Shown: in pieces, positions 771 through 23,731 of the stretch
Numbering within the stretch: the first letter of the stretch is position 1
How the letters are laid out: each line of letters opens with the position of its first letter
Virus record (IMG/VR): IMGVR_UViG_3300017598_000225
Span: 1-24,451 of that record
DNA: 24,451 nucleotides
From: a virus
Reading direction: 5' to 3' (one strand)
The notes under the pieces: generated by a model
Told to the model about the DNA's origin: nothing
Seen by the model: the letters and a program-made list of their open reading frames with translations, nothing else
Database searches by the model: none
Position numbers and translations under genes: made by a program

Positions 771-1140
771 ATGGAAAACAAAAGATGGTAAACTTATAGA
801 GATCCATGAAATGAGTGATAAGCATCTTTTAAATAGTCAAAGATATTGTAGAAACCAAGTTTGTGGCTTTAATGATATGATAAAGACTGCAGCCCATCCT
901 GTTTTTGCTTCTAGAGGCGATGGTGCTTGTTATGCATATGAACAAGCAGTAGAAGAAGGTTTTAAAGTAGCTAGTTCATGTAATTATATAGAACATTTTT
1001 TAGATAGAGAAGTTAAAAAACGAGGACTTATATCTCTCGAAATAAATCCTCCACTTAATTTACCTGAGATAGAAAATGTAGAATATCTTGATGAGGTACA
1101 ATATTTAAACTCAAACCAAAGAAAGGAGAAAAAGCTATGA
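757..1140 (+). CDS. Phage hypothetical protein (KWKTKDGKLIEI family)
   Basis: A 127-residue soluble protein whose start overlaps the ligase stop by 14 nt, with GTAGAGGTG just upstream as SD. The N-terminal pattern KWKTKDG, then EIHEM, then DKHLLNS is one I recognise from small uncharacterised phage proteins, which read W-TTKDG followed by MSDSHL-N; no biochemical role is known. Four cysteines are present (CRNQVC near 31-36, then single Cys around 58 and 74), so metal binding is possible but unproven. The codons are distinctly A/T-ended compared with the ligase. Its stop overlaps the next start (ATGA), indicating one operon. Confidence 0.75.
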   Translation: MKVPKWKTKDGKLIEIHEMSDKHLLNSQRYCRNQVCGFNDMIKTAAHPVFASRGDGACYAYEQAVEEGFKVASSCNYIEHFLDREVKKRGLISLEINPPLNLPEIENVEYLDEVQYLNSNQRKEKKL

Positions 1141-1484
1141 ACACAACAGAAGACAATGTAGAGGGCTACAAACCTCTCCGTGAGTTCTTTATCGCTGGAG
1201 TACAATTCCATCAACTCAAAACTATCATCGACAAACTCGAAGTCGATAACTATCTTCAACTAACCCCAGAACCTACCAACAAGTTCGATCCTAATGCAGT
1301 TCGCATTGAGTGCTTTACCAATGATGGAGATGTTATGTGTGGTTATGTTCCGAAGAAGTTCAGCAGTGAAATAGCTGCTTCTATAGAAGCTGGCTTCACA
1401 CTCGAATGTACTATCACCGAACTCAACAAGAATGCTAAACCTTGGGAACAGTGTAAAGTTTCTATTAAGGAGGTAATAGAATAA
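1137..1484 (+). CDS. Stand-alone HIRAN-domain protein
   Basis: A 115-residue protein that is essentially a single HIRAN domain. Seen: FFIAGVQFHQ (17-26), the hallmark PEPTNKFDPNAVRI (44-57), GYVPKK (69-74), and a C-terminal strand around PWEQCKVSI. In eukaryotic HLTF, HIRAN domains bind 3'-OH single-stranded DNA ends; phage and bacterial versions are thought to recognise damaged or stalled DNA. That fits the neighbouring ligase and recombination genes, but here it is inference. GAAAGGAG precedes the ATG, and the start overlaps the upstream stop (ATGA). Confidence 0.82.
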   Translation: MNTTEDNVEGYKPLREFFIAGVQFHQLKTIIDKLEVDNYLQLTPEPTNKFDPNAVRIECFTNDGDVMCGYVPKKFSSEIAASIEAGFTLECTITELNKNAKPWEQCKVSIKEVIE

Positions 1485-4961: not shown

Positions 4962-5273
4962 ATGACCAACGATGAGTTCCAACTTCACATGCAAGACTCT
5001 TTCCTTCGCAGTCGTAGAACTTTAGCTAAAAAAGAAAAGGAATACTCTGAAGGTATCGACCGCTTAGATCAATTCAAGAAAGCCGGAATCCTTAACAACG
5101 TCTCACCTACTGAATCCCTCTGGGGCATGGCTACTAAACACGTTACTTCAATAGCAGACATGGTGAAAGATCCCACATCGTACAATTTAAAAATCTGGCG
5201 AGAAAAACTTGGCGATCTTCGCAATTATACGATACTCTGCGAAGCTCTACTCTCTGACCTCGGTGTAAAGTAA
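4962..5273 (+). CDS. Phage hypothetical protein (possibly DUF1599/Nmad1-like)
   Basis: A 103-residue, probably all-helical protein with the best SD in the region (CTGGAGGTAAACT-ATG). Seen: RRTLAKKEKEYSEGIDRLDQFKKAG, ESLWGMATKHVTSIADMV, and IWREKLGDLRNYTILCEALL. The K-EYS, D-FK, KH, and EK-D--NY pattern is widespread in phages and recalls the DUF1599 nucleotide-modification-associated domain, whose members are thought to act on modified nucleotides. Its position directly upstream of dCMP deaminase fits nucleotide metabolism. The family link is from memory and tentative. Its TAA shares a base with the next ATG (TAATG). Confidence 0.65.
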   Translation: MTNDEFQLHMQDSFLRSRRTLAKKEKEYSEGIDRLDQFKKAGILNNVSPTESLWGMATKHVTSIADMVKDPTSYNLKIWREKLGDLRNYTILCEALLSDLGVK

Positions 5274-5860
5274 TGACTAAATACATTCAATCTATATGTT
5301 ACAACTGCGACTCTCGGTGTTGGAGACCTGGACAATCTGTCTACCTCAATGCTGAGGGTCGTTGCACTTCATGTGGGAGATTTGTCATGGAACCTAAGAA
5401 AAATTACTATAATGAAACTTTAAAGCGCTGGGATACTTATTTCCATAAACTCTGCGTTGCCGTGGCAAGTAAATCACCCTGCATGTCTCGCAGAATAGGC
5501 GCTATCTTGGTAAAAGACAATATACTTATCTCAACAGGCTACAACGGCCCTCCTCGTGGTTATCCTCATTGTTTAAGTTGTCCACGGAAAGCTGAGGGCT
5601 TCAAATCTGGAGAAGGCCTCCATCTATGCCCTGCAACTCATGCTGAGGCTAACTGCATTGCAACTGCTGCAAGAAGCGGAGTCTCAGTCTTTCACTCAAC
5701 ACTCTACATGAATTGCATTGTGCCTTGTAAAGACTGCATGGCTTTACTTATCAATGCTGGAGTTCGTGAAATAGTAATTAATGAACTCGAACCTTACCAC
5801 GAGATGTCATTAAAGATGGCAGGAATAGCTAACATTAAACTAAGGGAGTTTGTAAAATGA
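5273..5860 (+). CDS. dCMP deaminase with N-terminal zinc ribbon
   Basis: A 195-residue cytidine/deoxycytidylate deaminase that would convert dCMP to dUMP, the precursor of dTMP. Seen: catalytic zinc motif HAE (H123, E125) and PCKDC (C152, C155), plus GYNGPPRG (89-96), characteristic of dCMP deaminases. Further Cys/His between 99 and 119 could hold the second zinc of T4-type enzymes. Residues 1-38 add a CxxC (C9, C12) and a second CxxC (C31, C34), a likely zinc ribbon not in ordinary dCMP deaminases. Start 5273 has no SD but is coupled through TAATG; an internal ATG at codon 39 has GGGAG upstream and could give a shorter form. No thymidylate synthase is in the window. Confidence 0.9.
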   Translation: MTKYIQSICYNCDSRCWRPGQSVYLNAEGRCTSCGRFVMEPKKNYYNETLKRWDTYFHKLCVAVASKSPCMSRRIGAILVKDNILISTGYNGPPRGYPHCLSCPRKAEGFKSGEGLHLCPATHAEANCIATAARSGVSVFHSTLYMNCIVPCKDCMALLINAGVREIVINELEPYHEMSLKMAGIANIKLREFVK

Positions 5861-6048
5861 AAATCTTATATGCAGCTGAAGAAGGTGGAAAATGGCATCC
5901 TTGGCATATAGCAGTTCCAGGAAACAAAGTATTCGCTATCTGCCTATCAGATGGAACTATTTGGGATGAGGTGATTGGTGTATATGACCTAAATACAATG
6001 TCAAAAGATGAATTTAAAAAACTATTCAAAGGAGAACACTTAAGATGA
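5857..6048 (+). CDS. Small hypothetical protein, 63 aa
   Basis: A short ORF behind AAGGGAG at 8 nt, overlapping the deaminase stop and sharing ATGA with the next gene. Seen: MKILYAAEEGGKWHPWHIAVPG and FAICLSDGTIWDEVIGVYDL, suggesting a small beta-rich domain with several Trp, then a basic helix KDEFKKLFKGEH. Codons are A/T-rich compared with the neighbouring enzymes. I do not recognise a family. The tight coupling supports expression together with the SQD1-like gene. Confidence 0.65.
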   Translation: MKILYAAEEGGKWHPWHIAVPGNKVFAICLSDGTIWDEVIGVYDLNTMSKDEFKKLFKGEHLR

Positions 6049-7235
6049 GAATACTGATATTAGGTTCTGACGGATACATCGGATACCCTCTAACTCTCCA
6101 CCTACTCAAAAAAGGTCACACTATAGCCGGTCTCGACAACTTATCACGTCGAGCTCGTATAAAAAATCTTGGTGGAAACTCACTAACTCCAATCGAAGAG
6201 CCTTCAATGCGTGAGGCTTATCTAAAATCTACTTTCATTAAATACTACGGACGTTCAACTTGGACATTGCATGAGTTTAGTTATCCTAATGTCATAAATA
6301 TGTTAGATAACTTCAAACCAGATGCTATAGTTCATCTTGCAGAACAACCATCTGCACCATGGTCTATGAAGCAATGGGGCTTTGCAACTCAGACTCAGCT
6401 TCAAAATATAATAGGTACACTTCAACTCCTCTGGGCAATCCATAAGCAGTGTCCTGAAGCTCACTTGGTCAAACTTGGCACTATGGGTGAGTACGGAACT
6501 CCCAACTGTGACATACCTGAAGGTAGGATACCTGAAGAATGTATTGCAGGTCACATTATAGATATGTGCCCAGAAACCTTTTCACCAGCATTAAAATGCC
6601 CTATGTCCGGCCTTATCTTCCCTCGCACTGCTGGCTCTTTCTATCACCTAACCAAAGTCCATGACACTCTCAACATCGAGTTCGCTTGCCGTAACTGGGG
6701 TCTCCGCTCCACGGACATAATGCAGGGTGTGCTATTCGGTCTTGTAGGTGAAACACACGAACTAACTCGCTTCGACTACGACGAATACTTTGGTACTGCA
6801 ATAAATCGTTTCTGTGCTCAAGCTCTTTGTGGTATGCCTCTTACAGTCTACGGCAAAGGCAATCAGACTCGTGGCTTTCTACCACTCAAAGACTCTCTAC
6901 AATGTTTAACTCTCGCCCTCGAACAACCACCTAAACTCGGTGAGTATCGTACTCTTAACCAGTTCGAGAACATCTACAAAATAAATGATCTTGCAACTAT
7001 GGTGTGCAAAGCTGCTGATCAACTTGGAATTGGAGCTAAAATAAACCACATCCCTAATCCTCGTCTTGAGGCTGAGAATCACTACTACAACCCAGATCAT
7101 CAAAATCTATTCAACATGGGCTATGAACCCACAACAGATATTCAAAATGAGATCCTACAATTATTGGACAAGCTTTTGCCATTTTCAGATAGAATAATAA
7201 AAGATGTAATAATGCCTGTGACTAACTGGAGGTAA
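6045..7235 (+). CDS. sqdB/SQD1-like: UDP-sulfoquinovose synthase-like NAD-dependent enzyme
   Basis: A 396-residue extended short-chain dehydrogenase/epimerase whose closest relative in my memory is UDP-sulfoquinovose synthase (plant SQD1, bacterial SqdB, archaeal Agl3), which makes UDP-sulfoquinovose from UDP-glucose and sulfite. Seen: NAD-binding GSDGYIG (7-13) and LDNLSRR (30-36), EQPSAPWSM (100-108; the plant motif as I recall it is EQRSAPYSM), the nearly invariant KLGTMGEYGTPN (143-154) with catalytic-type T146, YHLTK (Y200, K204, with H201), YGKGNQTRG, NPRLEAE-HYYNP and the family-like C-terminal end IMPVTNW. Length matches the family. It lies among DNA-metabolism genes with no sulfolipid synthase nearby. 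Possible uses are decorating host lipid, LPS or a phage component; which one is not visible. A different nucleotide-sugar substrate is possible. Confidence 0.85.
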   Translation: MRILILGSDGYIGYPLTLHLLKKGHTIAGLDNLSRRARIKNLGGNSLTPIEEPSMREAYLKSTFIKYYGRSTWTLHEFSYPNVINMLDNFKPDAIVHLAEQPSAPWSMKQWGFATQTQLQNIIGTLQLLWAIHKQCPEAHLVKLGTMGEYGTPNCDIPEGRIPEECIAGHIIDMCPETFSPALKCPMSGLIFPRTAGSFYHLTKVHDTLNIEFACRNWGLRSTDIMQGVLFGLVGETHELTRFDYDEYFGTAINRFCAQALCGMPLTVYGKGNQTRGFLPLKDSLQCLTLALEQPPKLGEYRTLNQFENIYKINDLATMVCKAADQLGIGAKINHIPNPRLEAENHYYNPDHQNLFNMGYEPTTDIQNEILQLLDKLLPFSDRIIKDVIMPVTNWR

Positions 7236-7237
7236 CA

Positions 7238-7486
7238 ATGAAAGCATCTGAAGACTACCGCCCTCGCTTTATCTTTGAAATAACTGAAGAACAAAAGCAG
7301 AGGGCAGATCGTTATTTATCAACCTATGGCTTACGCAAAGCTGTATTCGGACGCTTACTCGATGAAGTCCTTGATCTAGTAGAAGAATACGGAGGTATGA
7401 CTATAGGCATAATCATGGACAAAAACATCAGACCAAGGGAGATAATCCCTTCTATGAAATCTGTGGAGGAGGTAGGTAAGAAATGA
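7238..7486 (+). CDS. Small phage protein, ribbon-helix-helix-like
   Basis: An 82-residue protein behind CTGGAGGTAACA. Seen: RPRFIFEITEEQKQRADRYL, then RKAVFGRLLDEVLDLVEEYG. A short strand followed by two amphipathic helices with basic residues is the arrangement of Arc/MetJ-type ribbon-helix-helix DNA-binding proteins, so a small transcription factor is plausible. The pattern is one I recognise as common in phages, but no function is established. It overlaps the next gene by 4 nt (ATGA). Confidence 0.65.
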   Translation: MKASEDYRPRFIFEITEEQKQRADRYLSTYGLRKAVFGRLLDEVLDLVEEYGGMTIGIIMDKNIRPREIIPSMKSVEEVGKK

Positions 7487-7746
7487 AAAAATACAGAAAA
7501 ATACCAGTTGAAATCGAAGCAACACAAATAACAAAGGAATGGTTTACAAAGGATCACCCAAATCCATTACATCCTGTATCAAAGGATAGAGAAATAATTA
7601 TTGATCCTATAAGCCAGCATGTTCAAATTCATACACTTGAGGGCGTAATGATTGGCAATATAGGTGACTATATTATCAAGGGTGTTAAGGGTGAACTTTA
7701 TCCTTGCAAGCCTGATATTTTTAAACTAACCTACGAAGCCGTTTAA
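7483..7746 (+). CDS. PGDYG-family phage protein, copy A
   Basis: An 87-residue protein of the small PGDYG-type family widespread in phages. Seen: KYRKIPVEIEATQIT at the N-terminus, HTLEGVMIGNIGDYIIKGVKGE and YPCKPDIFKLTYEAV at the C-terminus. Molecular role unknown. A paralogue follows at 8111-8374 with an almost identical C-terminal third. SD GGAGGAGG precedes the ATG. Codon use is A/T-rich. Confidence 0.82.
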   Translation: MKKYRKIPVEIEATQITKEWFTKDHPNPLHPVSKDREIIIDPISQHVQIHTLEGVMIGNIGDYIIKGVKGELYPCKPDIFKLTYEAV

Positions 7747-8110: not shown

Positions 8111-8374
8111 ATGTCTAAATATATGAAAAAACCTATAGTAATTGAGGCATTTCAATTAACAGTAGAAAATATAGAAGATCTTGAAAGTTGGTGTGGTGGA
8201 TCTATCAAGGGAATTCTACTTTCTATAAATCAAAGAGTAATAGATATAAATACTCCTGAGGGAGAGATACGTGCTAATATGGGAGACTTTATAATCAAAG
8301 GTATTAAAGGTGAGTTCTACCCATGCAAACCTGATATATTTAAACTTACTTATGATAAAGTGGAGGTTGACTAA
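8111..8374 (+). CDS. PGDYG-family phage protein, copy B
   Basis: An 87-residue paralogue of the gene at 7483-7746. Seen: KYMKKPIVIEAFQLT, NTPEGEIRANMGDFIIKGIKGE and YPCKPDIFKLTYDKV. Compared with copy A, both ends are strongly conserved and the middle (an acidic helix ESWCGGSIKGI here) has diverged. It starts behind GGAGGTAACTAATC and shares a base with the next gene (TAATG). Role unknown. Confidence 0.82.
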   Translation: MSKYMKKPIVIEAFQLTVENIEDLESWCGGSIKGILLSINQRVIDINTPEGEIRANMGDFIIKGIKGEFYPCKPDIFKLTYDKVEVD

Positions 8375-9696
8375 TGACTATTAACGTAGGCACTGTAGCT
8401 ATGATACCCTTAGACTCTATAACAATAACTAACCGCGCTCGTGAAGTAATGGGAGACTTAACTCCAATGGAAGAGGATATGAAAGCTTCTGGATTAATCT
8501 CTCCCTTAACCGTAAAAGATAACAAAAATGGAACCTTCTTACTCCTCGCAGGAGAGCGCCGTTATACAGTGTTAAAGAAAAACGAAATCACTTCAATTCC
8601 AGTCCGTATCTACAAACGTGAGTTGACTCAGCTAGAAATGAAAATAATTGAGAAGTCTGAAAACTTTCATCGTAAAGACTTTGAATTTTGGGAGTTAGAT
8701 AAACTAACAACTGAAATCCACAGGATGAAACAAGAACTCCATGGTGTTAAAGCTCCAGGCCCTGACCAAGATGGCTGGGGAACTCGTGATACTGCGGAAA
8801 TGATTGGAGCTAAATCTCCCTCCGCTGTCGTCGACTCTGTTAAACGAGCTGAAGCCCGTGAAGCTTTCCCTGAACTATTTGAAAAGTGCAAGTCTGCCTC
8901 TGATGCCTCCAAAGTCCTCAAAAATCTCAACGAGTCAATGATTAAGGAAGTTATTGCAAAGAAACTTGAAAACCAAAAAACTAACGCTACTTTCACTAGC
9001 GTTGCAAAGTGCTACATTGTAAAAGACTTCTTCGAAGGTGTGAAAGACATCCCAGATGAACACTTTCACCTTGTAGAAATAGACCCACCTTACGCTATTG
9101 ATCTTAAGAAAAAGAAAAAGAGCGAAGGTGAATCGCAGTATGTTAAAGATCACTACAACGAAATAGACACTGAACATTATCAAGTTTTCCTATCCAACCT
9201 ATTCGCAGAATGTTATCGAGTAATGACTGAACACTCATGGCTTATCTGCTGGTTCGCTCCTGAACCTTGGTTCGAAGTTATCTTTCGTGAACTTAACAAC
9301 GCTGGCTTCTCAACCTCTCGAATGTGTGGTATCTGGACTAAACCTTCAGGCCAAACTATGCAGCCTCAAACTCGTCTCGCTAACTCCTACGAGATGTTCT
9401 TTTACGCTTGGAAAGGACGTCCAGTGTTAAACAAAGCAGGACGCACAAACACTTTCAACTTCTCCCCAGTCTCTCCTAACCAAAAGACTCATCCCACAGA
9501 ACGTCCAATTGAGTTAACCACTGAACTTTACGAAACCTTTGCTTTCCCAGGCTCTCGTGTCTTAATCCCTTTCCTTGGCTCAGGCAACGGAATCATTAGT
9601 GCCAACGAACTTGGAATGTCTCCTATTGGATTTGAACTAAGCAAAGCCTACAGAGACTCATTCCTAGTCAAATGCAATTCTTTATTTAACGTATAA
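8374..9696 (+). CDS. ParB-like nuclease domain fused to a beta-class DNA methyltransferase
   Basis: A 440-residue two-domain protein. N-terminal part: ParB/sulfiredoxin fold with IPLDSITITNRAR (11-23), SGLISPLTV (39-47), and AGERRY (59-64). A helical middle section (about 80-200) resembles the DNA-binding region of ParB/KorB proteins. C-terminal part: amino-methyltransferase with motif IV DPPY (237-240), then WLICWFAP, a target-recognition-like segment, HPTERPIEL (373-381) and the SAM-binding FLGSGN (400-405). Motif IV before motif I is the beta-class order. DPPY predicts N6-adenine or N4-cytosine methylation. No restriction enzyme is adjacent, so it looks like a solitary phage methylase for regulation or protection against host restriction. 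Confidence 0.88.
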   Translation: MTINVGTVAMIPLDSITITNRAREVMGDLTPMEEDMKASGLISPLTVKDNKNGTFLLLAGERRYTVLKKNEITSIPVRIYKRELTQLEMKIIEKSENFHRKDFEFWELDKLTTEIHRMKQELHGVKAPGPDQDGWGTRDTAEMIGAKSPSAVVDSVKRAEAREAFPELFEKCKSASDASKVLKNLNESMIKEVIAKKLENQKTNATFTSVAKCYIVKDFFEGVKDIPDEHFHLVEIDPPYAIDLKKKKKSEGESQYVKDHYNEIDTEHYQVFLSNLFAECYRVMTEHSWLICWFAPEPWFEVIFRELNNAGFSTSRMCGIWTKPSGQTMQPQTRLANSYEMFFYAWKGRPVLNKAGRTNTFNFSPVSPNQKTHPTERPIELTTELYETFAFPGSRVLIPFLGSGNGIISANELGMSPIGFELSKAYRDSFLVKCNSLFNV

Positions 9697-9984: not shown

Positions 9985-10196
9985 AAGCTAAATACATATA
10001 TACTCTTGAAGTAACTTTAGTCTTAACTCGAAGAGAAACTGATTGGCTAAAGTCTGTAATGCAGAATCCTCTTACAGAACCAGAGACAAAAACTGATAGA
10101 GAAATGAGAAAGATAATCTGGGACACTTTAGATAACGGAGAAAAAAACTGTGAAAAAAGCAACCTACGTTCCACCTTGGGGAAATCTCGAGGCTAA
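9981..10196 (+). CDS. Small phage protein upstream of DNA polymerase
   Basis: A 71-residue ORF behind ATGGAGGTAAATCA. Seen: YTLEVTLVLTRRETDWLKSVMQNPL, then DREMRKIIWDTLDNGE. The pattern, a strand followed by the TRRE-WLK-VMQNPL helix, is one I know from small phage proteins encoded just before DNA polymerase. Function unknown. Its last 47 nt overlap the polymerase start, longer than most overlaps here, so the tail SNLRSTLGKSRG may be non-essential. Confidence 0.65.
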   Translation: MKAKYIYTLEVTLVLTRRETDWLKSVMQNPLTEPETKTDREMRKIIWDTLDNGEKNCEKSNLRSTLGKSRG

Positions 10197-12672
10197 GCTA
10201 GGAATCTGCTGTGAACAGCCTGGTAAGAGTGAAATCTTCTCTCGGCCTCGTAAGCCACTTGTTGGTAAAACTGGACAAAGCTTCGACGACTGCTTACGTT
10301 TAACTAAGACTATCCGCAGTAATCTCTACTTAACAAACGTAATCAAAGATCTTGATCATCCACTTAGATACTACATAAACATAAGCAGTCAAGGCAAAAG
10401 CACTATTAGTCAAGAAGGCTATGAATACATCCAAGCACTTGCATCTGAACTAAAAGCACTAAACCTAAACTGTGTCCTCGCTTGTGGAAACGTTGCACTC
10501 CTCGCTCTAACAAACAGAGTCGGAGTAACTAAATGGCGTGGCTCTGTACTCGAATCTACCATTGTACCTGGATTAAAAGTAATCCCTACTTTCCATCCAT
10601 CTACCTTTACTCCACCTAAAAATTTCAGCTTCTTAAACAAACCCTTATTCGTCACTGACTTACTAAAGGCTAAAGATGAGTCTGAGTTTCCTGAGATCAG
10701 AAGAATGGCAAGAAACTGCATTACTCGACCAGATTTTAACTATGCAACGAATATACTCAATTACTGCTATGAAGTTGGCCGTAGAGGACAATCCATTGCT
10801 GTTGACCTTGAAGTTATTAATGGTGAAGTGGATTGCTTCTCAGTTGGCTGGTCTAATACACAAGCTGCCTGTATCCCATTCCGTGATTATCAAGGTAGCT
10901 ATTTCAATCCTGATCAAGAGCTTGAGATTATGCTGCTCTTCGCCAGAATTATACAGGATGAAGGAATAGCTAAATGCGGTGCTAACTACATCTTCGACAT
11001 GCAGTTTCTATTCCGCAAGTATGGAATTGCATCTCGTGGAATAAACAACTGTACTCAAATAGCACAAAAGATAACCTATCCAGACTTCTCCGCTGGCCTT
11101 GCCTTTGTAACATCTATGTATACTGACATTCCTTATTACAAAGAAGATGGAAAACAGTGGATGAAGATGGGTGCTGGTTCATGGGAAGAGTGGTGGAACT
11201 ACAATGCAATGGATTCTATAGTTCCACTTGAAGCGCTTCCAAAACAGTTCCAAACTATCCGTAAACAACAGAATGAAGAAATCTATGAACGTCATAGACG
11301 TTTACAAGAACCTCTAATATACATGTCAGAGCGTGGAATTAAAGTAGACGTAAACGGCATGGTTGAGCATAAGAAAGACCAAGAAGACAAACTAACCTCA
11401 CTCGCTGACGAACTTGACGATGTCGTAGGCTATCATATAAACTACAACTCACCTCAACAGTTAATGAAATACTTCTACGACGAGTGTGGTCTTTCTCCTT
11501 ACAAAAAGAAGAATTCAAGAGGTGAATATAAACCGACTACGGACGTAGACGCACTCAAACGCATCTCACGTAAAGATGAGAAAGGTTCTCAAGCTGCTCA
11601 AATAATGCTTGACATCCGTGGACTTAGCAAGCGTTGCTCTACATACTTAAATGTAGGAAAGGTGGATTTAGATGGAAGATACAGAAGTTCATACAAGCCA
11701 GTGGGAACTGAGACTGGACGGCTCAGTAGTGGCGAAACTATCTTTGGGACTGGAGGTAATCAACAAAATTGGCCTCATGACCTCCTTCGATTCTTCCTCT
11801 TTGATGAAGGATATATCGGATACAGCTTTGACCTTAGTCAAATCGAGAATCGTATCGTCGCTTATGTTGGAGGAGTCCTGCCACAAATCGAAGCCTTCGA
11901 AAACCAAATAGACCTCCACCGTATGACTGCTTCAGTAATCTTCTCTAAACCCTACGATCAGATATCTGACAAAGATGGTTCTAGCAACCTCGGCGATGGT
12001 AGACAGTCAGAACGCTTCTGGGGAAAGAAAGGAAACCATGCAATTAACTACGATGTAGGCTTTAAAACCTTCGCTTTGAAAAACGAACTACGTGAAGGTG
12101 AGGCTAAATATCTACTAGAAACTATCCACCGTGGCTATCCTCAGATCCGTGGAGGTTATCATAAAGTTATCCAAAACATGCTTTTGAAAGACAGAACTAT
12201 CACAAATCTCTTCAACCGTAAGCGCTTGTTTCTAGGCCCTGTAACTCCATCACCTCCTCTAATACCAAAAGGTGCTTGCTTAAACACACTCCGTGAGGCC
12301 CTCGCACAGCTTCCACAAAGCACTTGCGCTGACAAGATAAACGAACACGGATTGCTTTACATCTATGAAAATCAAGCGATATTCAAACCAACTGAGCTTC
12401 TCACACAGATACATGACTCTATCGTATTCCAGATTCATCAATCTCTCCCATTAATAGAACATGCTAAGATCCTTTTAGCAGTAAAAGCTTCACTCGAACA
12501 ACCTCTCTACTGGCATGAAAGAGAAATTCAAACACCTTGTGATCTCTGCATAGGCTTCAATATGTGTAAGAAAGAAATGAAAGAATTAAAAAGCAAAGAG
12601 ATCTCCTCCAAACCTGAAAAACTCGCTGAAGACCTAAACCAGATAATAGAAAATCTACGAGGCTCTAACTAA
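10150..12672 (+). CDS. Family A DNA polymerase with N-terminal UDG-like domain
   Basis: The 840-residue replicative polymerase. GTG start at 10150 behind CGGAG. Domain 1 (about 1-175): UDG-superfamily fold with CCEQPGKSE (20-28), RKPLVGKTGQ (34-43) and FHPSTF (148-153), as in SPO1-type polymerases; whether it still excises uracil is unknown. Domain 2 (about 205-370): 3'-5' exonuclease with DLE (D219, E221), D283, and Y351-x3-D355, so proofreading looks intact. Domain 3 (about 385-810): polymerase with TGRLSS (522-527), motif A FDLSQIENR (D561), motif B with R622, K626 and Y634, and motif C QIHDS (H755, D756). The E. coli F762 equivalent is H630. A cysteine-containing tail (CDLCIGFNMC) follows. 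The TAA is shared with the next ATG. Confidence 0.95.
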   Translation: MKKATYVPPWGNLEAKLGICCEQPGKSEIFSRPRKPLVGKTGQSFDDCLRLTKTIRSNLYLTNVIKDLDHPLRYYINISSQGKSTISQEGYEYIQALASELKALNLNCVLACGNVALLALTNRVGVTKWRGSVLESTIVPGLKVIPTFHPSTFTPPKNFSFLNKPLFVTDLLKAKDESEFPEIRRMARNCITRPDFNYATNILNYCYEVGRRGQSIAVDLEVINGEVDCFSVGWSNTQAACIPFRDYQGSYFNPDQELEIMLLFARIIQDEGIAKCGANYIFDMQFLFRKYGIASRGINNCTQIAQKITYPDFSAGLAFVTSMYTDIPYYKEDGKQWMKMGAGSWEEWWNYNAMDSIVPLEALPKQFQTIRKQQNEEIYERHRRLQEPLIYMSERGIKVDVNGMVEHKKDQEDKLTSLADELDDVVGYHINYNSPQQLMKYFYDECGLSPYKKKNSRGEYKPTTDVDALKRISRKDEKGSQAAQIMLDIRGLSKRCSTYLNVGKVDLDGRYRSSYKPVGTETGRLSSGETIFGTGGNQQNWPHDLLRFFLFDEGYIGYSFDLSQIENRIVAYVGGVLPQIEAFENQIDLHRMTASVIFSKPYDQISDKDGSSNLGDGRQSERFWGKKGNHAINYDVGFKTFALKNELREGEAKYLLETIHRGYPQIRGGYHKVIQNMLLKDRTITNLFNRKRLFLGPVTPSPPLIPKGACLNTLREALAQLPQSTCADKINEHGLLYIYENQAIFKPTELLTQIHDSIVFQIHQSLPLIEHAKILLAVKASLEQPLYWHEREIQTPCDLCIGFNMCKKEMKELKSKEISSKPEKLAEDLNQIIENLRGSN

Positions 12673-13937
12673 TGCACAGACGGAATCTACCTGACTGGCT
12701 CGAAGGATTCATGCTCTTAACTGAAGAGTCTGAGCCTCCTGTTCTATATCGCAAGTGGTCTGCAATTTCTGCTATCGCCAGTGCACTCCAACGTAAGACT
12801 AAAATAAGCCTTGGGATCTCACTAACCGTTTACCCAAACTTCTACATTGTCTTAGTAGGTCCTTCAGCTACTGGCAAAGGCACTGCTATGAAATTCGCTT
12901 ATGATATTATAAGCCAGATACCTAACATCAAGCTTACTGCTCAAGCTACGTCACGTCAAGCCCTCATCCGTAGAATGAAAGAAGTAAACTTAACTGACAC
13001 TGACTTAGAAACTAGCAAGCAACTATACCACTCGTCTATAACAGTCTTCTCCAACGAGTTCACCGTCTTCCTCGGCTATCAAGAACGTGAACTAATCGCT
13101 AATCTCTGCGACTGGTACGACTGTCACAATGTCTGGACTTATGACACTATCTCACGAGACAGAGAAAAAATCGTAGGCTGCTGGGTAAACATTATAGGAG
13201 GAACTACACCTGAAAATATTCAAGAAAGTTTACCTGAAAAAGCTATTGGCTCTGGTCTAACTTCACGAATTATCTTTGTTAATGAAGATAAGAGAAGTAA
13301 AGTAGTAGTCTTCCACTCAGCAGCCCAACGTGAACTTGAATTACAACAACACTTAATACATGATCTTGAAGCAATCAACTTAATGACAGGAACGTTTAAC
13401 TTCAGCAGTGATGCTATAGACTACTACACCTCATGGTGCTATGAAGCTGCCAGCAATCCACCTTTCCATGACACTAAATTTGACGGATACTGTGGACGTA
13501 GACGGAACCATTTACTATCTCTCTCAATGGTTTGTAGTGCAAGTCGAGATAACGAACTCGTTGTCTTGAAAGATGACCTTGAGCGTGCTGATGTATTGCT
13601 TAAGGAAGTAGAAGTTAAAATGGGAACTGTCTTCCGTGGAATGGGAAAGAGTAACATAGCAGCTTTAATCAACGATACTATAATATTTATGGAGAATAGT
13701 TTTATAAGAGAAATTCCAATGTGGCAGTTTGCAAGACGCTTTGAAGGACAAATGGATAAGTTTACTATGGATAGGGTTCTAGACACACTTGCTGCATCTA
13801 GATACATTGAAGTGATTAAAATCCCTGGGCAGGGTGAGACGATTAAAATTTTAGACCGTCCAAAAATCGAACGTACTAATCAGGCTTCTCAGGCGATCTC
13901 CGAAGACGACCAACCTCATTCAGAAAATTCTCAGTGA
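12672..13937 (+). CDS. DUF3987-like P-loop ATPase, probable replicative helicase
   Basis: A 421-residue P-loop protein. Seen: KWSAISAIASALQRK (28-42), YPNFYIVLVGPSATGKG (54-70) with Walker A GPSATGKG, TSRQALIRRM, Walker B-like ITVFSNEF (E129), a WVNIIGGTTPENI segment with the sensor Thr, and GSGLTSRIIFV carrying a probable arginine finger. This order is that of DUF3987-type phage and mobile-element proteins, considered primase/helicase-associated ATPases. Position directly after DNA polymerase (TAATG coupling) supports a replication helicase. The C-terminal 20 residues are polar and overlap the convergent virion gene by 62 nt. Helicase activity is inferred. Confidence 0.8.
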   Translation: MHRRNLPDWLEGFMLLTEESEPPVLYRKWSAISAIASALQRKTKISLGISLTVYPNFYIVLVGPSATGKGTAMKFAYDIISQIPNIKLTAQATSRQALIRRMKEVNLTDTDLETSKQLYHSSITVFSNEFTVFLGYQERELIANLCDWYDCHNVWTYDTISRDREKIVGCWVNIIGGTTPENIQESLPEKAIGSGLTSRIIFVNEDKRSKVVVFHSAAQRELELQQHLIHDLEAINLMTGTFNFSSDAIDYYTSWCYEAASNPPFHDTKFDGYCGRRRNHLLSLSMVCSASRDNELVVLKDDLERADVLLKEVEVKMGTVFRGMGKSNIAALINDTIIFMENSFIREIPMWQFARRFEGQMDKFTMDRVLDTLAASRYIEVIKIPGQGETIKILDRPKIERTNQASQAISEDDQPHSENSQ

Positions 13938-16900
13938 TTACTCCACCAGCGCTATCAACTATTGCCATCTCACGCTGTATGTCTTTTCTATCTAATGGAC
14001 TCAAACTCTCCCACCTATGATAGAATACTTTGGCTCTAGCTTTGGTATCAAGACCTTTCAATCGTAGCCAGAAAGATCTGTTCTTAAGATCTTTTATCTC
14101 AACGCTATACCTAAAGCGCTCAAATAATCTATCAACTACATCTAGATCTTTGAAACTTCTAATATACTCACCTATTTCCTTCTTCGAAGTATTCTTCTGA
14201 TACAGATAACCATCGACTCTTAAATCAAGTCCTCTATTCTGCACCATTACGTCTAGCTCACTTGCTTGCTTAGCTTTCTCTATACTACTCGCATACTGTG
14301 AGTAAGGATTAGTTATTCCAAAGAATCTTCGGATAATAGGTTTCTTCGCTAATACCTCAGCTAAATGCTTCTCACTCATATCCTTAGGCATATCACCGAA
14401 CATAGCTTTATAACCTTCACCTAAAAGATAAGACCACATAGTTCCTTTTGTTGTAAGTTCCTCAACTGCATACCTCATCCGTTCAGGTGAAAGCTCAGTC
14501 TTTGCACCTACATCTTTATAAAACTCTGGAGTCAGATAACTATATTCCTCACTACTAAACGGATAACTAAATGGCTTGTCAGTCTTCTTCCATATATCTT
14601 CATTTAACCAGAAGTCTTTATTAGTAACATAGCCAAGCAGAGCACTCAAAAACGGAGGCATCTCAGTCACACCAGTTGGGCTAAACTCCTTCAATGAATC
14701 AACTACTCTATCCACATCAATCTCATTCCCTAACCACTTATCAGTGCAAGCCTCAAAGAATGTTTTGAAGAACTTCTGACTTGGATCTAATGGCATCTTA
14801 AGATACGGATATCTCATCTGTCCATGGCTGTCTTCAAAGCCAAACTCATCACCAAGTGGGATACAGATATTATTCTGCATATCTATATTACCCTGCAGTG
14901 CTTCCTTTGTCTTAGGACTCATCTTACCCATTGCTATGGTAAGCCCACTTACAGCAGCTGCAAACTGTGCCATTTTATATGTAGAAGCTATAGGGTTATC
15001 TTTAAAAGCTCTAAACAAACCTCTCCCACCTTGCACAGCTGCATTAAAGTAAGGAAGCCCATTATCGAAAGCTTTAACTGCCCAACCTCCTTGTCCAAAG
15101 TCCATGTAATCACGAGCAGTGAATGTAGCTTCATCGGTTATCTCTTTATTCTTTCTCGCTTCCTCCATACTCAACTTACGCTCCTTAGCCCTACGTCTTA
15201 TCACGCTCTCACGTATTGAAAGTCTAGTCATTATCTCAGACGTCTCACCTAAATAACCAAGGAAGTCAAGTACCTTATCAGCCTTACCCTCAAGATGCCT
15301 ACCTCGTTGAAACAATCTACCTTGATGTACTAAGAACTCCATCCCTCCACCTTCATTAATATAATCCTCATAACGACCTTTTCTTAACAAGGCATCACTG
15401 AATGTAGTTACCAAGTCTCTCGTCATCTGCATACCATATATAGGTGCATGAGAACTATAAAGAGGTTTCCAGTTCTCTCCTTCAAACACTCTAGCTGCAT
15501 ACCAAATATGCATTACGTCTCTTGGTAAATTAGCTAATGCAAAGCCCCAGTTAATTCCAGTAGCCATCATTCTAAGTACTGGTGCTCCACTTATCCATCT
15601 TACAAGCTGACCTAAACGATAGCTCATATCTGGGCTACTATTAATCCATTCCTTAGACATCTCCTTAGATAGATAAACAGCTTTACGTTTTCCATCTTTA
15701 AATACAAAGATTCTACTCCAACCACTTGGTATTGGCTCGTCTCCTTTAACCCTTGCAAAAGAATTCAGTGGATCTCTCTCTGCTAAATCAAGTAATGATA
15801 AACCAGCTTTGTTATTAAGTATACGTCCATAAGCTCTATTAAATGTCTCAAGAGCCATGATCTCACTTGACGGCTCATAGATATCAGTCTCACGGCCTCG
15901 GGCTAATGACTCAACCCCTGAATCATAAACAGTCATTCTTTTCTTACCTACTTTAGCCCTATAACGCTGATCGAAGATGTTAACTAACTTTGTCTTACGA
16001 TAGTAATGTGAAGCTAATTCACCACGCTCTGCTTCAGATATAAGCCCTGCTTCATACATATCCTCCACAGCTTGTGTCATATAGTTATCATATGCTTTAG
16101 CTCGGCTCATTAAAAGTTCTGCTCTCTCACCAGTCAGATCCTCAAGACCATTTACATCTTTATACCTATAAGTCTCTATAAACCTAACAAAGTCCTCAAG
16201 CTTTAACGGAAACTTATATTGCTTTTCACTCTTATACCCACCTATGTCTTTCATCCTCAGTGATAAAATTAAGTCATCTAAAATCTTCTTCTCATTACCT
16301 GAAAGCCCACCGAAGACTTCATTTTGCATCTGCTTAAGTTTCCTCGCTGCTAATGACGAAGAGCCTCTTGTAAGCACCATCTTCTGCACAATTCTATAAC
16401 CTTCATCACCTAGTTTCATAAGCATTTGCTTTCTAATATTCCCTGACTTATCTACCAATGCAGTAACGGCTTCTTCCTTAGTCATTTTTGCAGCTTCTTT
16501 TGGTTTAAAAGCTTTCATACCACGAGCTTTTGATGTATAGTCAGCTACACGCTTAGCGCTTTTAATTACTTCTCTTGGGTCTATTCCTGAAAAAAGCTTT
16601 ACACCTTCTTCTCTCAATCCTTTAGTATATTCCTTAGGATCTGTGTAAATATCTGGATAACGTAAATGCTCACCTTTCTTTATCTTAAATCCTTCTTCAG
16701 CATTCTTTATTGACTTCATTAATTTTTCTCTGCTAGCACCAAAAGTTGCTAACGTTGTTTCTGGAGGGTCTAACTTTGGGTCTATCAACATACCATACCA
16801 AGCCATCCCATCTTCAAATCCGAGAAGTCTAAGTCCAAATTCTTTAGCCAGCTCAGCAGCTTTCCTCGCTTCACCTGTGAGTTCAGAGATAGGAATCTGT

Positions 16901-19527: not shown

Positions 19528-20650
19528 ATTTAATAGTCTCCGTATCACCTGAAGGCCATTTGACCTTCCAGATTATGTCACGCTTGTTGTCAGAAAAGTT
19601 AACACCAACTACAGTTCCACCACCTGCAGCAATTTTACTTTCTATGTAAGCAGCAGCAGCCTTTGGTTTAGCATTTGAATCGTCTGAGAACATATACTGC
19701 ATTCTTACAGCTGAGCTATTTAAATACTCATTAACATCATCTAACCACTTTGGGTCCTTGAAGTAGATCTGACCTTTAATATCAGCCATAGCTTTCTTCT
19801 GTTCAACTTTCTCACCGACAGAGATTCTAGTAGCTCCAGATTTTCTAAGACCAGTTTCCATTTCAAGCATCTCTGGATTTTCTTCTAAGTATTCAAGAAA
19901 CTTAGCTCGCTCTGGTGCTTCAAACTCATTAATAAAATCTTTATAAGACATAATATCTGAATCACCAGACGTCCTTGCCTGATTAACATAGGCAGCATAG
20001 TTCCTACGCTCCATTGGAAGTGATTGCCATTCTCTTAATGTGACAGCTCCTACATCAGGAACCTGAATTGGGAACTGTCTATCAAGTGGCTCACCTTGTA
20101 TTATATCTTGCACCTGAGCCATTTTAAGAATAGTATCAACATCACTTTCCATTTTCCTCTGCTTAAGCTGCTCTATATTCAAAGCACCGCTTAGTGCATT
20201 AGATACGTCCTGTGGAGTCAAGCCAGCTAGATCGGCCGCTGATAGGCCTAGCTGACTAGGAGAAGGGTTTAAGAAATCTAAAAACCCTCCTTTCTTTGCT
20301 TCTGGTAAGTTAGGCATTCCAGGCACTTGTACGTTAGGTGTTTGTACTCCTGATAAGCCAGATGAGAGAAGATTTGGCGAGCTACCTTGTGGAGCTCCCA
20401 TACCTCCTTCTTTGTTTTCAAAGACACTTGGCGCTAGAGTCATGTTTAAACCTTTGTTATTAACACTCATCTTCGAGTCACCAAGTTTTCCAGCAAGCAT
20501 CTGTCTAAAGACAGATATTAATTCATTCTGATGCTTAGATTTAAAACCTGACTGAACTAATTGATTCAAGTTCTGTGTCCAAGGCTGTTCATTAAGCCCT
20601 GCACCAGCAGCTGAAAGCGCTTGCATTAAAAAATCAGTATTTATAGGCAT
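19511..20650 (-). CDS. Probable internal virion/ejection protein, 379 aa
   Basis: ATG 20650 has AAAGGAG 8 nt upstream and is preferred to the in-frame codon at 20677, which lies in the intergenic element. Seen: helical N-terminus FLMQALSAAGAGLNEQPW, LISVFRQMLAG, a central low-complexity Gly/Pro/Ser/Asn region (about 75-150) with PNVQVPGMPNLPEA, then a charged helical C-terminal half (ERAKFLEYLEENPEMLEME) and a beta-rich end. No enzyme motif. Placed between the giant transglycosylase protein, which it overlaps by 17 nt, and a glycine-zipper protein, it probably belongs to the ejected inner-virion complex, comparable in position to T7 gp15. Function inferred from context only. Confidence 0.65.
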   Translation of the reverse strand: MPINTDFLMQALSAAGAGLNEQPWTQNLNQLVQSGFKSKHQNELISVFRQMLAGKLGDSKMSVNNKGLNMTLAPSVFENKEGGMGAPQGSSPNLLSSGLSGVQTPNVQVPGMPNLPEAKKGGFLDFLNPSPSQLGLSAADLAGLTPQDVSNALSGALNIEQLKQRKMESDVDTILKMAQVQDIIQGEPLDRQFPIQVPDVGAVTLREWQSLPMERRNYAAYVNQARTSGDSDIMSYKDFINEFEAPERAKFLEYLEENPEMLEMETGLRKSGATRISVGEKVEQKKAMADIKGQIYFKDPKWLDDVNEYLNSSAVRMQYMFSDDSNAKPKAAAAYIESKIAAGGGTVVGVNFSDNKRDIIWKVKWPSGDTETIKYAIGS

Positions 20651-21576: not shown

Positions 21577-22020
21577 CTATAAAATCTTTCTACATATAGT
21601 TTTATGTTTTTCAAATCCTAATGATTCAAGGATTTGTCCTATTCTTTTATTTGAATACTCAGCCACTATAACATTACAGTCATTCGCTTTTGCAAACTTT
21701 CTTATTCCTTCATATAACTCATCCATTAAATCTTGAGATATTAATCTAAAACCATAGAGTGTGTCTACTAATAAAGCTTTAACACCATAGTTTTTTTCAT
21801 CTGATATTTTGGTAGTAGCAATATACTGAAGTCTCCTATTTCCTTCATCGTCAAACTTATACCCAAACCAGCACTGAGCTAGTCCAGAAAGATGATGTTC
21901 AAAGGATCTATTTGTAAAATCTTGTTGAAAATCTTTTGGTATTTTATAAGCACTAATCATTGACTGCTTTATAAGACTCCAAAAAATCGCTGTCTGTTCA
22001 GGCTGTAATTTAATAAGCAT
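21577..22020 (-). CDS. GNAT-like phage protein in the tail/virion block
   Basis: A 147-residue protein with a possible SD AAAGGG before ATG 22020 and an 11-nt overlap with the upstream gene's end. Seen: QTAIFWSLIKQSM, CWFGYKFDDEGNRRLQYIATTKI, VKALLVDTLYGFRLIS, CNVIVAEYSNKRIGQILESLGF. The strand order and the final NKR-G-ILESLGFE helix-strand resemble a GNAT N-acetyltransferase fold, but the acetyl-CoA loop (Q/R-x-x-G-x-G/A) is not clear. It may be a degenerate GNAT with a structural role. I recall similar proteins next to tail genes in other phages. Activity uncertain. Confidence 0.55.
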   Translation of the reverse strand: MLIKLQPEQTAIFWSLIKQSMISAYKIPKDFQQDFTNRSFEHHLSGLAQCWFGYKFDDEGNRRLQYIATTKISDEKNYGVKALLVDTLYGFRLISQDLMDELYEGIRKFAKANDCNVIVAEYSNKRIGQILESLGFEKHKTICRKIL

Positions 22021-23731
22021 CTAAAGGCCCTTTCGGATCACGAGTGAAACGCTGATCTATAAATTTAAGTTGAATGGCTATCTTAGACAAATCAAAAGGT
22101 TCATAGTCTTCACTCTTTAACCTAATTCTAAATTCAACAGCTGCTACCCTTATAGAAGCAACTCCCTCTTTATTCAACTGAGTCCATGGAGAAGTTTTAA
22201 ATTCCTGTCTTCTATCATATCTGTAATCAATAGCTGCCCAGAGCTGAAGTGGAGATGTACAATCAAAGTGAACTGATTCTATTGACTTAAGCCCGCTGTG
22301 TTTGAAGTCTAAAACATCAGTGCAGATGGCAACTGGATTATGTTCAGATTCAGATGGAGCTACTAATTTCAAATCACTGTAGACTCTATAAAGTCCATTA
22401 ACTAATGCATATCCACCAGTTAAAATGCTCTCATTGAATATATACCCTGTCGATGCATCACTGATGTAGAGTCTTTGCTCTGCCTCATCCCAAGACATAG
22501 TTGGATTTGTTAGTGGGAGTAGAAACTCTTCATATCCAAACTTTTCAAGCCCTTGAGTTGAAAATTTACAAAGGCATCCAAGGATGTCTACAAAGTAATG
22601 AATATTCTTATCTCCACACACAGCTGTTTTATTCTTAATTCCTACTCTCGATACATCTTTAAATCCAAATGTAGCGGCTGGGCTGTCTGTAGGAAATGCA
22701 ACAGTTATTCCACCACTCCCGTAGATAGCTACATTTTTATCTATTTGTAGTGTCTGATAAACAAATCCAGGCCAAGCCATTGGTCTACGACCTGCCTCGT
22801 TTAATCTATCAAGTATCATATCTACATCACCAATCTTACTCCATGCTACCCAGTTTGCCTTTTCCCTATTAACTATGCAACTGCCATTAATAGACATTTC
22901 AAGAGTTAATTCATCTGCATCAACAAATGCTGCAGACGGAACTTCTCCAGATATAGATATCTCCATCACAAGTTCAAGATCATCCATTTCGTAAAAGTCT
23001 TCAAGAACATTTCCAGAGATAGATATCTCTAATATCGGAATTCCTGCATAGTTGTTAGCCTCACAATTAAAAGTTACATCATTATCATGGTCATAGATTG
23101 GAGGAGTAGTAGGTGCCTCAGTTGTTAACATAGTTGTAGGAACAACTGTAGTCGGTAATACTGTTGTAACAGGAGGTGGAGACGTAGGTGGAATTGGTGA
23201 AGTAGGAGCTACAGTAGTTGGAGGAGCACCTGTCGTTATTGTAGTAGTAGGAACAGCTGTAGTGGGTGGAACAGTAGTGGGTGGTGCTGTAGTCGGAGTC
23301 ATGTCTTCAAGAATAAGTTGATCAATTCTTAAATAATGTCCTACAATTCCATAAGTTTCATGAACTATTTTTATCTTAGCCTGTCCACCACTAGACCAAT
23401 TAGCTGTGTCTAAAGTAGCCCATTCATAAGTCTGATCAGATGATTCGTTAGGTATAGTTCCAAGCTCTGACCAATAACTAAAATGATAGTTCCATGCATA
23501 AGCTTTGACTATATGAATACTGCTACCTTCATAATAGCCAACCATCTTCGGTCTGAAGTGGGATACAGTCCCAGGAATGGATTCAAAAACGAACTCATAG
23601 TCAAAGCCTGGCTCTGCAGCTTCTTCATTTAAACCTAACTTATTCCCATCATCAGTTGTAGTCCTAGCTATTGTTCCCCAAGCTATACTACCAGTATTTA
23701 TAGTGAGACTATCTACATCATACCAGGCCAT
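22010..23731 (-). CDS. Probable tail/receptor-related protein with Thr/Pro-rich linker
   Basis: A 573-residue protein behind TTAGGAG. Three parts are visible. Residues 1-143 look like a beta-sandwich (AYAWNYHFSYWSELG, WATLDTANWSSGGQAKI, HYLRIDQLIL). Residues 144-211 are a mucin-like Thr/Pro/Val/Ala tract with repeated PTT units. Then come three repeats of about 22 residues around ISISG (236-240, 258-262) and MSINGS (279-284). The remaining C-terminal part (about 290-573) contains NVAIYGSGGITV, FGFKDVSRVGI, HYFVDILGCLCKF and RLYISDASTGYIF, a beta-rich pattern like phage tail/stabilisation proteins. It is likely a surface-exposed tail component that might bind the host. Exact role inferred. Confidence 0.6.
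   Translation of the reverse strand: MAWYDVDSLTINTGSIAWGTIARTTTDDGNKLGLNEEAAEPGFDYEFVFESIPGTVSHFRPKMVGYYEGSSIHIVKAYAWNYHFSYWSELGTIPNESSDQTYEWATLDTANWSSGGQAKIKIVHETYGIVGHYLRIDQLILEDMTPTTAPPTTVPPTTAVPTTTITTGAPPTTVAPTSPIPPTSPPPVTTVLPTTVVPTTMLTTEAPTTPPIYDHDNDVTFNCEANNYAGIPILEISISGNVLEDFYEMDDLELVMEISISGEVPSAAFVDADELTLEMSINGSCIVNREKANWVAWSKIGDVDMILDRLNEAGRRPMAWPGFVYQTLQIDKNVAIYGSGGITVAFPTDSPAATFGFKDVSRVGIKNKTAVCGDKNIHYFVDILGCLCKFSTQGLEKFGYEEFLLPLTNPTMSWDEAEQRLYISDASTGYIFNESILTGGYALVNGLYRVYSDLKLVAPSESEHNPVAICTDVLDFKHSGLKSIESVHFDCTSPLQLWAAIDYRYDRRQEFKTSPWTQLNKEGVASIRVAAVEFRIRLKSEDYEPFDLSKIAIQLKFIDQRFTRDPKGPLDAY
23099..23302 (-). repeat. Thr/Pro-rich low-complexity coding repeat
   Basis: This stretch codes residues 144-211 of the 573-residue tail-like protein, made of degenerate PTT, APPTT and VPTT units. 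On the + strand it is rich in GTAG and GGAGG-like words. It is an extended flexible linker between two folded regions. Confidence 0.75.

Follow-up and report, generated by a model that had tools for sequence, protein, structure and literature searches.

A divergent SqdB-like enzyme of a phage lineage and its possible part in the glycosylation of phage proteins

A viral contig of 24,451 nucleotides (positions 1 to 24,451 of IMG/VR record IMGVR_UViG_3300017598_000225, hereafter the window) encodes a divergent SqdB-like nucleotide-sugar enzyme, which in related, uncultured phages co-occurs with a GT27-like glycosyltransferase and with Thr/Pro-rich repeats in late proteins. We propose, as a reading whose chances we judge evenly balanced, that enzyme and transferase together serve the glycosylation of phage proteins, with the repeats as likely acceptors, and not the synthesis of host sulfolipid.

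An SqdB-like enzyme with a substituted active-site arginine

The gene, here called sqdB, and its surroundings comprise the following features:

6045..7235, plus strand: gene for the SqdB/SQD1-like NAD-dependent nucleotide-sugar enzyme (396 aa; profile, structure-sequence, alignment, tree and fold evidence)
6030..6034, plus strand: Shine-Dalgarno-like AGGAG, 10 nt ahead of the sqdB ATG
6348..6350, plus strand: codon CCA for Pro102, replacing the essential Arg of EQRSAP (alignment and Agl3 mutagenesis; PMC4388408)
5857..6048, plus strand: 63-aa ORF, its stop overlapping the sqdB start
5273..5860, plus strand: dCMP/cytidine-deaminase-family protein, flanking the sqdB presence/absence site in many relatives
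7238..7486, plus strand: conserved 82-aa protein of unknown function, encoded immediately after sqdB and kept in relatives with and without it
8374..9696, plus strand: ParB-N / N6/N4 DNA methylase fusion, a core gene and the phylogenetic marker of the lineage

The reading frame is intact from the ATG at 6045 to the stop ending at 7235; its start overlaps the stop of the preceding ORF in an ATGA (6045-6048), and its GC3 is that of the adjacent genes. A chance ORF or a frameshift artefact is ruled out by the intact frame, the ribosome-binding site and the conserved family. The motifs quoted in the initial annotation are all present, namely KLGTMGEYGTPN (residues 143-154), YHLTK (200-204), YGKGNQTRG (269-277), NPRLEAE (338-344) and an IMP-W-type C-terminus, with IMP at 389-391 and W395.

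The original assignment to a near-full-length SQD1/SqdB-family protein holds, as SQD1 is the best match both by sequence and by fold. In a sequence search of solved structures, SQD1 (1qrr) is found at 3.4e-99 and the next family at 9.5e-9; Foldseek, queried with an AlphaFold model built from 18 viral relatives (pLDDT 73, pTM 0.80, low confidence at residues 147-200), ranks 1qrr first at 4e-35, with the next family at 1.8e-18. The comparison with other epimerases that had been advised comes out the same way: SQD1 and Agl3 are nearer than other epimerases or dehydratases, as judged by profile and fold scores, our tree of 85 proteins comprising no outside family. The GxxGxxG cofactor motif (G7, G10, G13) is in place, as is the [ST]MG...YxxxK fingerprint of SQD1-type enzymes (PMC8987622), kept as T146 M147 G148 and Y200-K204. 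The NCBIfam model for UDP-sulfoquinovose synthase (NF041015) aligns over 1-384 of its 384 positions with 443 bits and so misses its cut-off of 575 bits; this cut-off is narrow, since Chloroflexota and Pseudomonadota copies that have the Arg discussed below (R-type) likewise fall under it, at 327-505 bits. Membership in the SQD1/SqdB/Agl3 family in the broad sense is thus virtually certain, and the protein is very probably an active nucleotide-sugar enzyme.

The best guide to its active site is Agl3, in which alanine mutants of His95, Arg101, Met145, Tyr182 and Lys186 are inactive, while E147A and Y148A are weak (PMC4388408). Arg101 is the Arg of EQRSAP, since the 'R101A' primer decodes to AEQ-A-SAP (PMC4388408); in a 393-aa Thermoproteota protein (L197), which its length and residue numbering suggest to be Agl3, the same Arg falls at position 100. 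The window protein retains H95, M145, E147, Y148, Y182 and K186 of Agl3 as H97, M147, E149, Y150, Y200 and K204, but reads EQPSAPWSM in place of EQRSAPYSM at residues 100-108. This exchange had been pointed out from the start, and proves weightier than supposed, in that the Arg is essential in Agl3 and the Pro marks an entire subclade. Pro occupies the site in 63 of the 66 aligned viral copies (one has Arg and two are unaligned there), and it also characterizes a cellular subclade of Chloroflexota, Nitrososphaerota, Dadabacteria and others; Arg is found in Sulfolobales, in plant SQD1 and in Pseudomonadota copies of the low-scoring group. One set of 80 cellular loci was fetched partly by a Pro-containing pattern, which biases its P/R counts; unbiased NF041015 searches of cellular genomes return both P- and R-type copies. 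The two types occur together in 2 of 13 cellular genomes (G008, with L166 and L176; G013, with L172 and L177). Around the cellular P-type copies, the neighbours most often conserved, from related Chloroflexota, resemble amino-acid biosynthesis genes and are uninformative on function. Given the modest pLDDT of the model and its low confidence at 147-200, we base no argument on the geometry at Pro102. Because Pro replaces the essential Arg, we file the protein as a divergent, P-type SqdB-like enzyme, whose chemistry is probably retained but whose product is not assured.

Relatives of the protein occur in more than 100 IMG/VR contigs and in none of the INPHARED phage records searched. In the 85-protein tree, which places SQD1 and Agl3 on separate branches, the window protein falls inside a virus-only clade of 35 (SH-aLRT 100), separate from several other viral acquisitions. 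Its sqdB is thus an established phage gene and not a recent pick-up from a host.

Genes that accompany sqdB in related phages

Using the ParB-methylase fusion as a probe, we found phages of the same lineage with and without sqdB. They share a conserved order of exonuclease, AAA/Sak4-like gene, two small genes, deaminase-family gene, sqdB, 82-aa gene and then ParB-methylase fusion, followed by the UDG-polymerase and a DUF3987 primase. In this otherwise conserved operon sqdB was gained or lost at one site, usually cleanly, with the deaminase on one side and the 82-aa gene on the other. Among named phages the nearest is Desulfofustis phage MD01, which is without sqdB; its host was assigned by CRISPR, with a spacer match shown at <80% identity (PMC10370329).

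Some other genes of the window are of interest in their own right. The polymerase (10150-12672, plus strand) is a DNA polymerase A whose N-terminal part (residues 8-154) matches Pfam UDG, a domain of the uracil-DNA-glycosylase superfamily; the protein is conserved throughout the lineage. Two paralogous 87-aa proteins (7483-7746 and 8111-8374, plus strand) surround a short stretch in an apparent gene duplication, and at least the first of them matches phrog_419. A HIRAN-domain protein (1137-1484, plus strand) is also matched by PADLOC PDC-M03B models; for the SqdB-like protein PADLOC returned no defence model. On the minus strand, 13876-19548 encodes a protein of 1890 aa, which has a transglycosylase domain at its N-terminus and matches internal virion proteins with an endolysin domain.

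The initial annotation described an operon without a sulfolipid synthase. The operon is likewise without a glycosyltransferase on the window, but only because the contig ends early, within the late genes; the search for a glycosyltransferase suggested there leads, in near-complete relatives, to a GT2-family protein of ~330 aa (alignment A3/A6; hereafter family A3) encoded between the gene for the small and that for the large terminase, and we infer that the window's own, incomplete phage carries it as well. It lies in a variable cassette with methyltransferases, epimerases, further glycosyltransferases and one sulfotransferase-like gene. The last, beside the transferase in one relative (L306:5297-5908), would offer another route to a sulfated glycan; in a further cassette a B12-binding and a radical SAM domain are fused to a GT2 domain (L279:4046-6064), and similar GT2 fusions occur in some phages without sqdB.

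Among the contigs of this lineage on the marker tree, family A3 was found in all 16 sqdB-positive contigs holding the terminase locus and in 2 of 14 sqdB-negative ones, counts that leave out two positives lacking both transferase and terminase locus (G772, G776) and include some distant negatives entered with the locus unchecked. A Pagel-type likelihood test on the methylase tree supports the co-occurrence (p=6e-5, n=30; 1e-3 in the close lineage, n=24); a starred-branch independent-pairs test had just four pairs and hence no power. The absence of sqdB was confirmed in 13 of 20 sqdB-negative contigs by a repeat search with positive control. The two loci are widely separated on the genome, so their co-occurrence is not accounted for by simple linkage. 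In this lineage sqdB was never seen without the transferase where the terminase locus is present; at least three contigs (the two counted above and G821) have the transferase but no sqdB, so it can work without an SqdB-derived donor. An sqdB-positive contig of another lineage (G779) is without family A3, and among 20 contigs with more distant viral sqdB copies 15 have some GT2-family gene.

The structure predicted for the transferase (pLDDT 92) is informative. In comparisons with Foldseek and VIA-align, the 29 best entries are all polypeptide GalNAc-transferases (Z 26-24), the next family following at Z 18.9; the best match aligns 279 of 322 residues with an rmsd of 2.8 (Z 26.1). By sequence the protein matches ppGalNAcT10 at 1.7e-6 over a region spanning DSH and WGG-x-[DE]...H, other GT2 enzymes scoring similarly over its N-terminal part. 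Of the residues that correspond to the DxH metal motif and to the WGGE(N) motif with its downstream metal His in GT27, DSH94-96 and H222 are invariant or near-invariant, and WGG is invariant, with G/A then D/E at the Glu position. The 322-residue protein ends after the catalytic domain and lacks the ricin-type lectin domain that animal GT27 enzymes typically have at their C-terminus. Going by the modelled fold, we predict a GT27-like enzyme that resembles mucin-type polypeptide GalNAc-transferases and would glycosylate Ser/Thr. Characterised GT27 enzymes use UDP-GalNAc.

A candidate acceptor is present on the window itself:

22010..23731, minus strand: 573-aa protein of the late block with a Thr/Pro-rich mucin-like repeat, probably structural and without a family hit; candidate acceptor
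23099..23299, minus strand: extent of this Thr/Pro repeat, 67 aa of which 39% are Thr and 30% Pro

The late block that encodes it runs opposite to the sqdB operon. Tandem Thr-Pro repeats of the PTTLAPTTLAPTT type, 82-602 aa in extent, are found in late-region proteins of 12 of 20 sqdB-positive phages, the window included, and in none of 17 sqdB-negative ones, save for one borderline 33-aa non-PTT hit (Fisher 7e-4 with this hit counted; Pagel p=0.004 with phylogeny). By the same measure the other eight sqdB-positive phages are without a long Thr/Pro repeat; either other acceptors must exist, then, or the link is partial. Thr-Pro repeats are a classical substrate type for mucin O-glycosyltransferases. 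Since they are encoded among late genes, the repeat proteins are presumably virion components; that the repeats are the acceptors is an assignment we make tentatively, at slightly less than an even chance.

Proposed pathway and alternatives

How might these components work together? The window enzyme would bind NAD+ and UDP-glucose, oxidise C4, eliminate water across C5-C6 and add sulfite; what results would be UDP-sulfoquinovose or a UDP-hexose that is closely related to it and likewise modified at C6. This product would be the donor for a phage-encoded protein glycosylation, of which the GT27-like enzyme encoded between the terminase genes would be the key enzyme and the Thr/Pro-rich repeats of late, probably virion, proteins the likely acceptors. 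The sulfite would come from the host, and indeed would have to, as a search of 15 phage records for the sulfite-generating PAPS reductase found none. As sqdB travels with the transferase and the mucin-like repeats, its role probably lies in sugar-coating the particle and not in the host membrane. That the enzyme is the donor source for a phage-encoded glycan appears to us probable; that the product is UDP-sulfoquinovose is a prediction about as likely to hold as to fail. Of the earlier suggestions, the one best supported here is that the enzyme feeds the decoration of a phage product. The most complete version, phage mucin-type O-glycosylation in which the GT27-like enzyme places the SqdB-made sulfonated sugar on virion Thr-Pro repeats and thereby builds a negatively charged sulfoglycan coat, is a speculative one and on balance unlikely.

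The same pathway could instead run on another sugar, with P-type enzymes acting as UDP-glucose 5,6-dehydratases or other C6-modifying enzymes that make a non-sulfonated nucleotide sugar. Agl3 deprived of sulfite does make UDP-glucose-5,6-ene. Pro is fixed in the viral clade, and in a wide subclade of cellular copies as well, at a site where Agl3 requires Arg (PMC4388408), which would fit such a change, and the presence of both P- and R-type copies within the same genome, in 2 of 13, suggests different jobs. However, the other active-site residues that were tested, and the SQD1-specific TMG fingerprint, are all unchanged, and P-type proteins occur on both sides of the tree, in the SQD1- and in the Agl3-like branches, so that the P/R difference may be neutral; a non-sulfonated product thus strikes us as rather doubtful.

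Remodelling of the host envelope was another of the roles initially put forward: host transferases would introduce UDP-sulfoquinovose into sulfolipid or a surface glycan, altering the envelope or blocking superinfection. While the enzyme family normally serves such lipids or glycans, and sqdB, in its replication operon, may be expressed early, the gene tracks a phage transferase resembling protein O-glycosyltransferases and Thr/Pro repeats in phage proteins, and no sulfolipid synthase was identified among its neighbours in the window or the relatives, which leaves this role unsupported and improbable. Attachment of the sugar to phage DNA bases, which the adjoining deaminase-family gene, the DNA methylase fusion and polA might bring to mind, is very unlikely, as these neighbours are equally present in phages without sqdB and the transferase found with sqdB has a fold like that of GT27, unlike a DNA glucosyltransferase.

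Glycosylation of phage proteins, our preferred reading, would give a phage metabolic gene that has had no explanation its place in a pathway of donor synthase, transferase and acceptor repeat, for which close relatives provide a natural series of presence and absence. If it is true, viral 'sulfur metabolism' genes of the sqdB type are a matter of particle surface chemistry, not of host sulfur cycling. Many proteins are, moreover, likely labelled UDP-sulfoquinovose synthase without having the Arg required by Agl3, the one mutagenised prokaryotic enzyme.

Relation to known systems

In the literature searched we found nothing relevant on mucin-type glycosylation in phages, and no mention of the P-type clade, of a link to a GT27-like enzyme or of an association with repeats. 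A putative UDP-sulfoquinovose synthase has been reported from a viral contig of the Cariaco Basin (PMC7785012), which shares with our case the named function, the viral origin and a proposed role in glycosylation; that contig is described as Mu-like, and the part of the report available to us gives no link to a glycosyltransferase or an acceptor. Given this one report, viral sqdB by itself is not new, while its linkage to transferase and repeats appears to be. Desulfofustis phage LS06-2018-MD01 (OP947158) has the same order of ligase, nuclease, ATPase, ParB-MTase, DNA polymerase, primase and terminase, but is without sqdB, the inter-terminase transferase and the Thr/Pro repeat.

The window enzyme is homologous to SQD1, SqdB and Agl3 over its full length and shares their fold; it also keeps GxxGxxG, TMG...YxxxK and those His, Met, Glu, Tyr and Lys residues that were mutated in Agl3. 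It differs in having Pro for the EQRSAP Arg, a score under the NF041015 cut-off, a place in a virus-only clade and a setting in a phage replication operon. The phage transferase, in turn, shares with the polypeptide GalNAc-transferases of GT27 the predicted fold and has, in DSH, WGG-x-[DE] and a downstream His, a partial likeness to their motifs, but is phage-encoded, has no lectin domain and is ~15% identical. Mucin-type protein O-glycosylation is known from animals and parasites; if our proposal is true, the phages studied here have a counterpart of their own, operating with an unusual sulfonated sugar.
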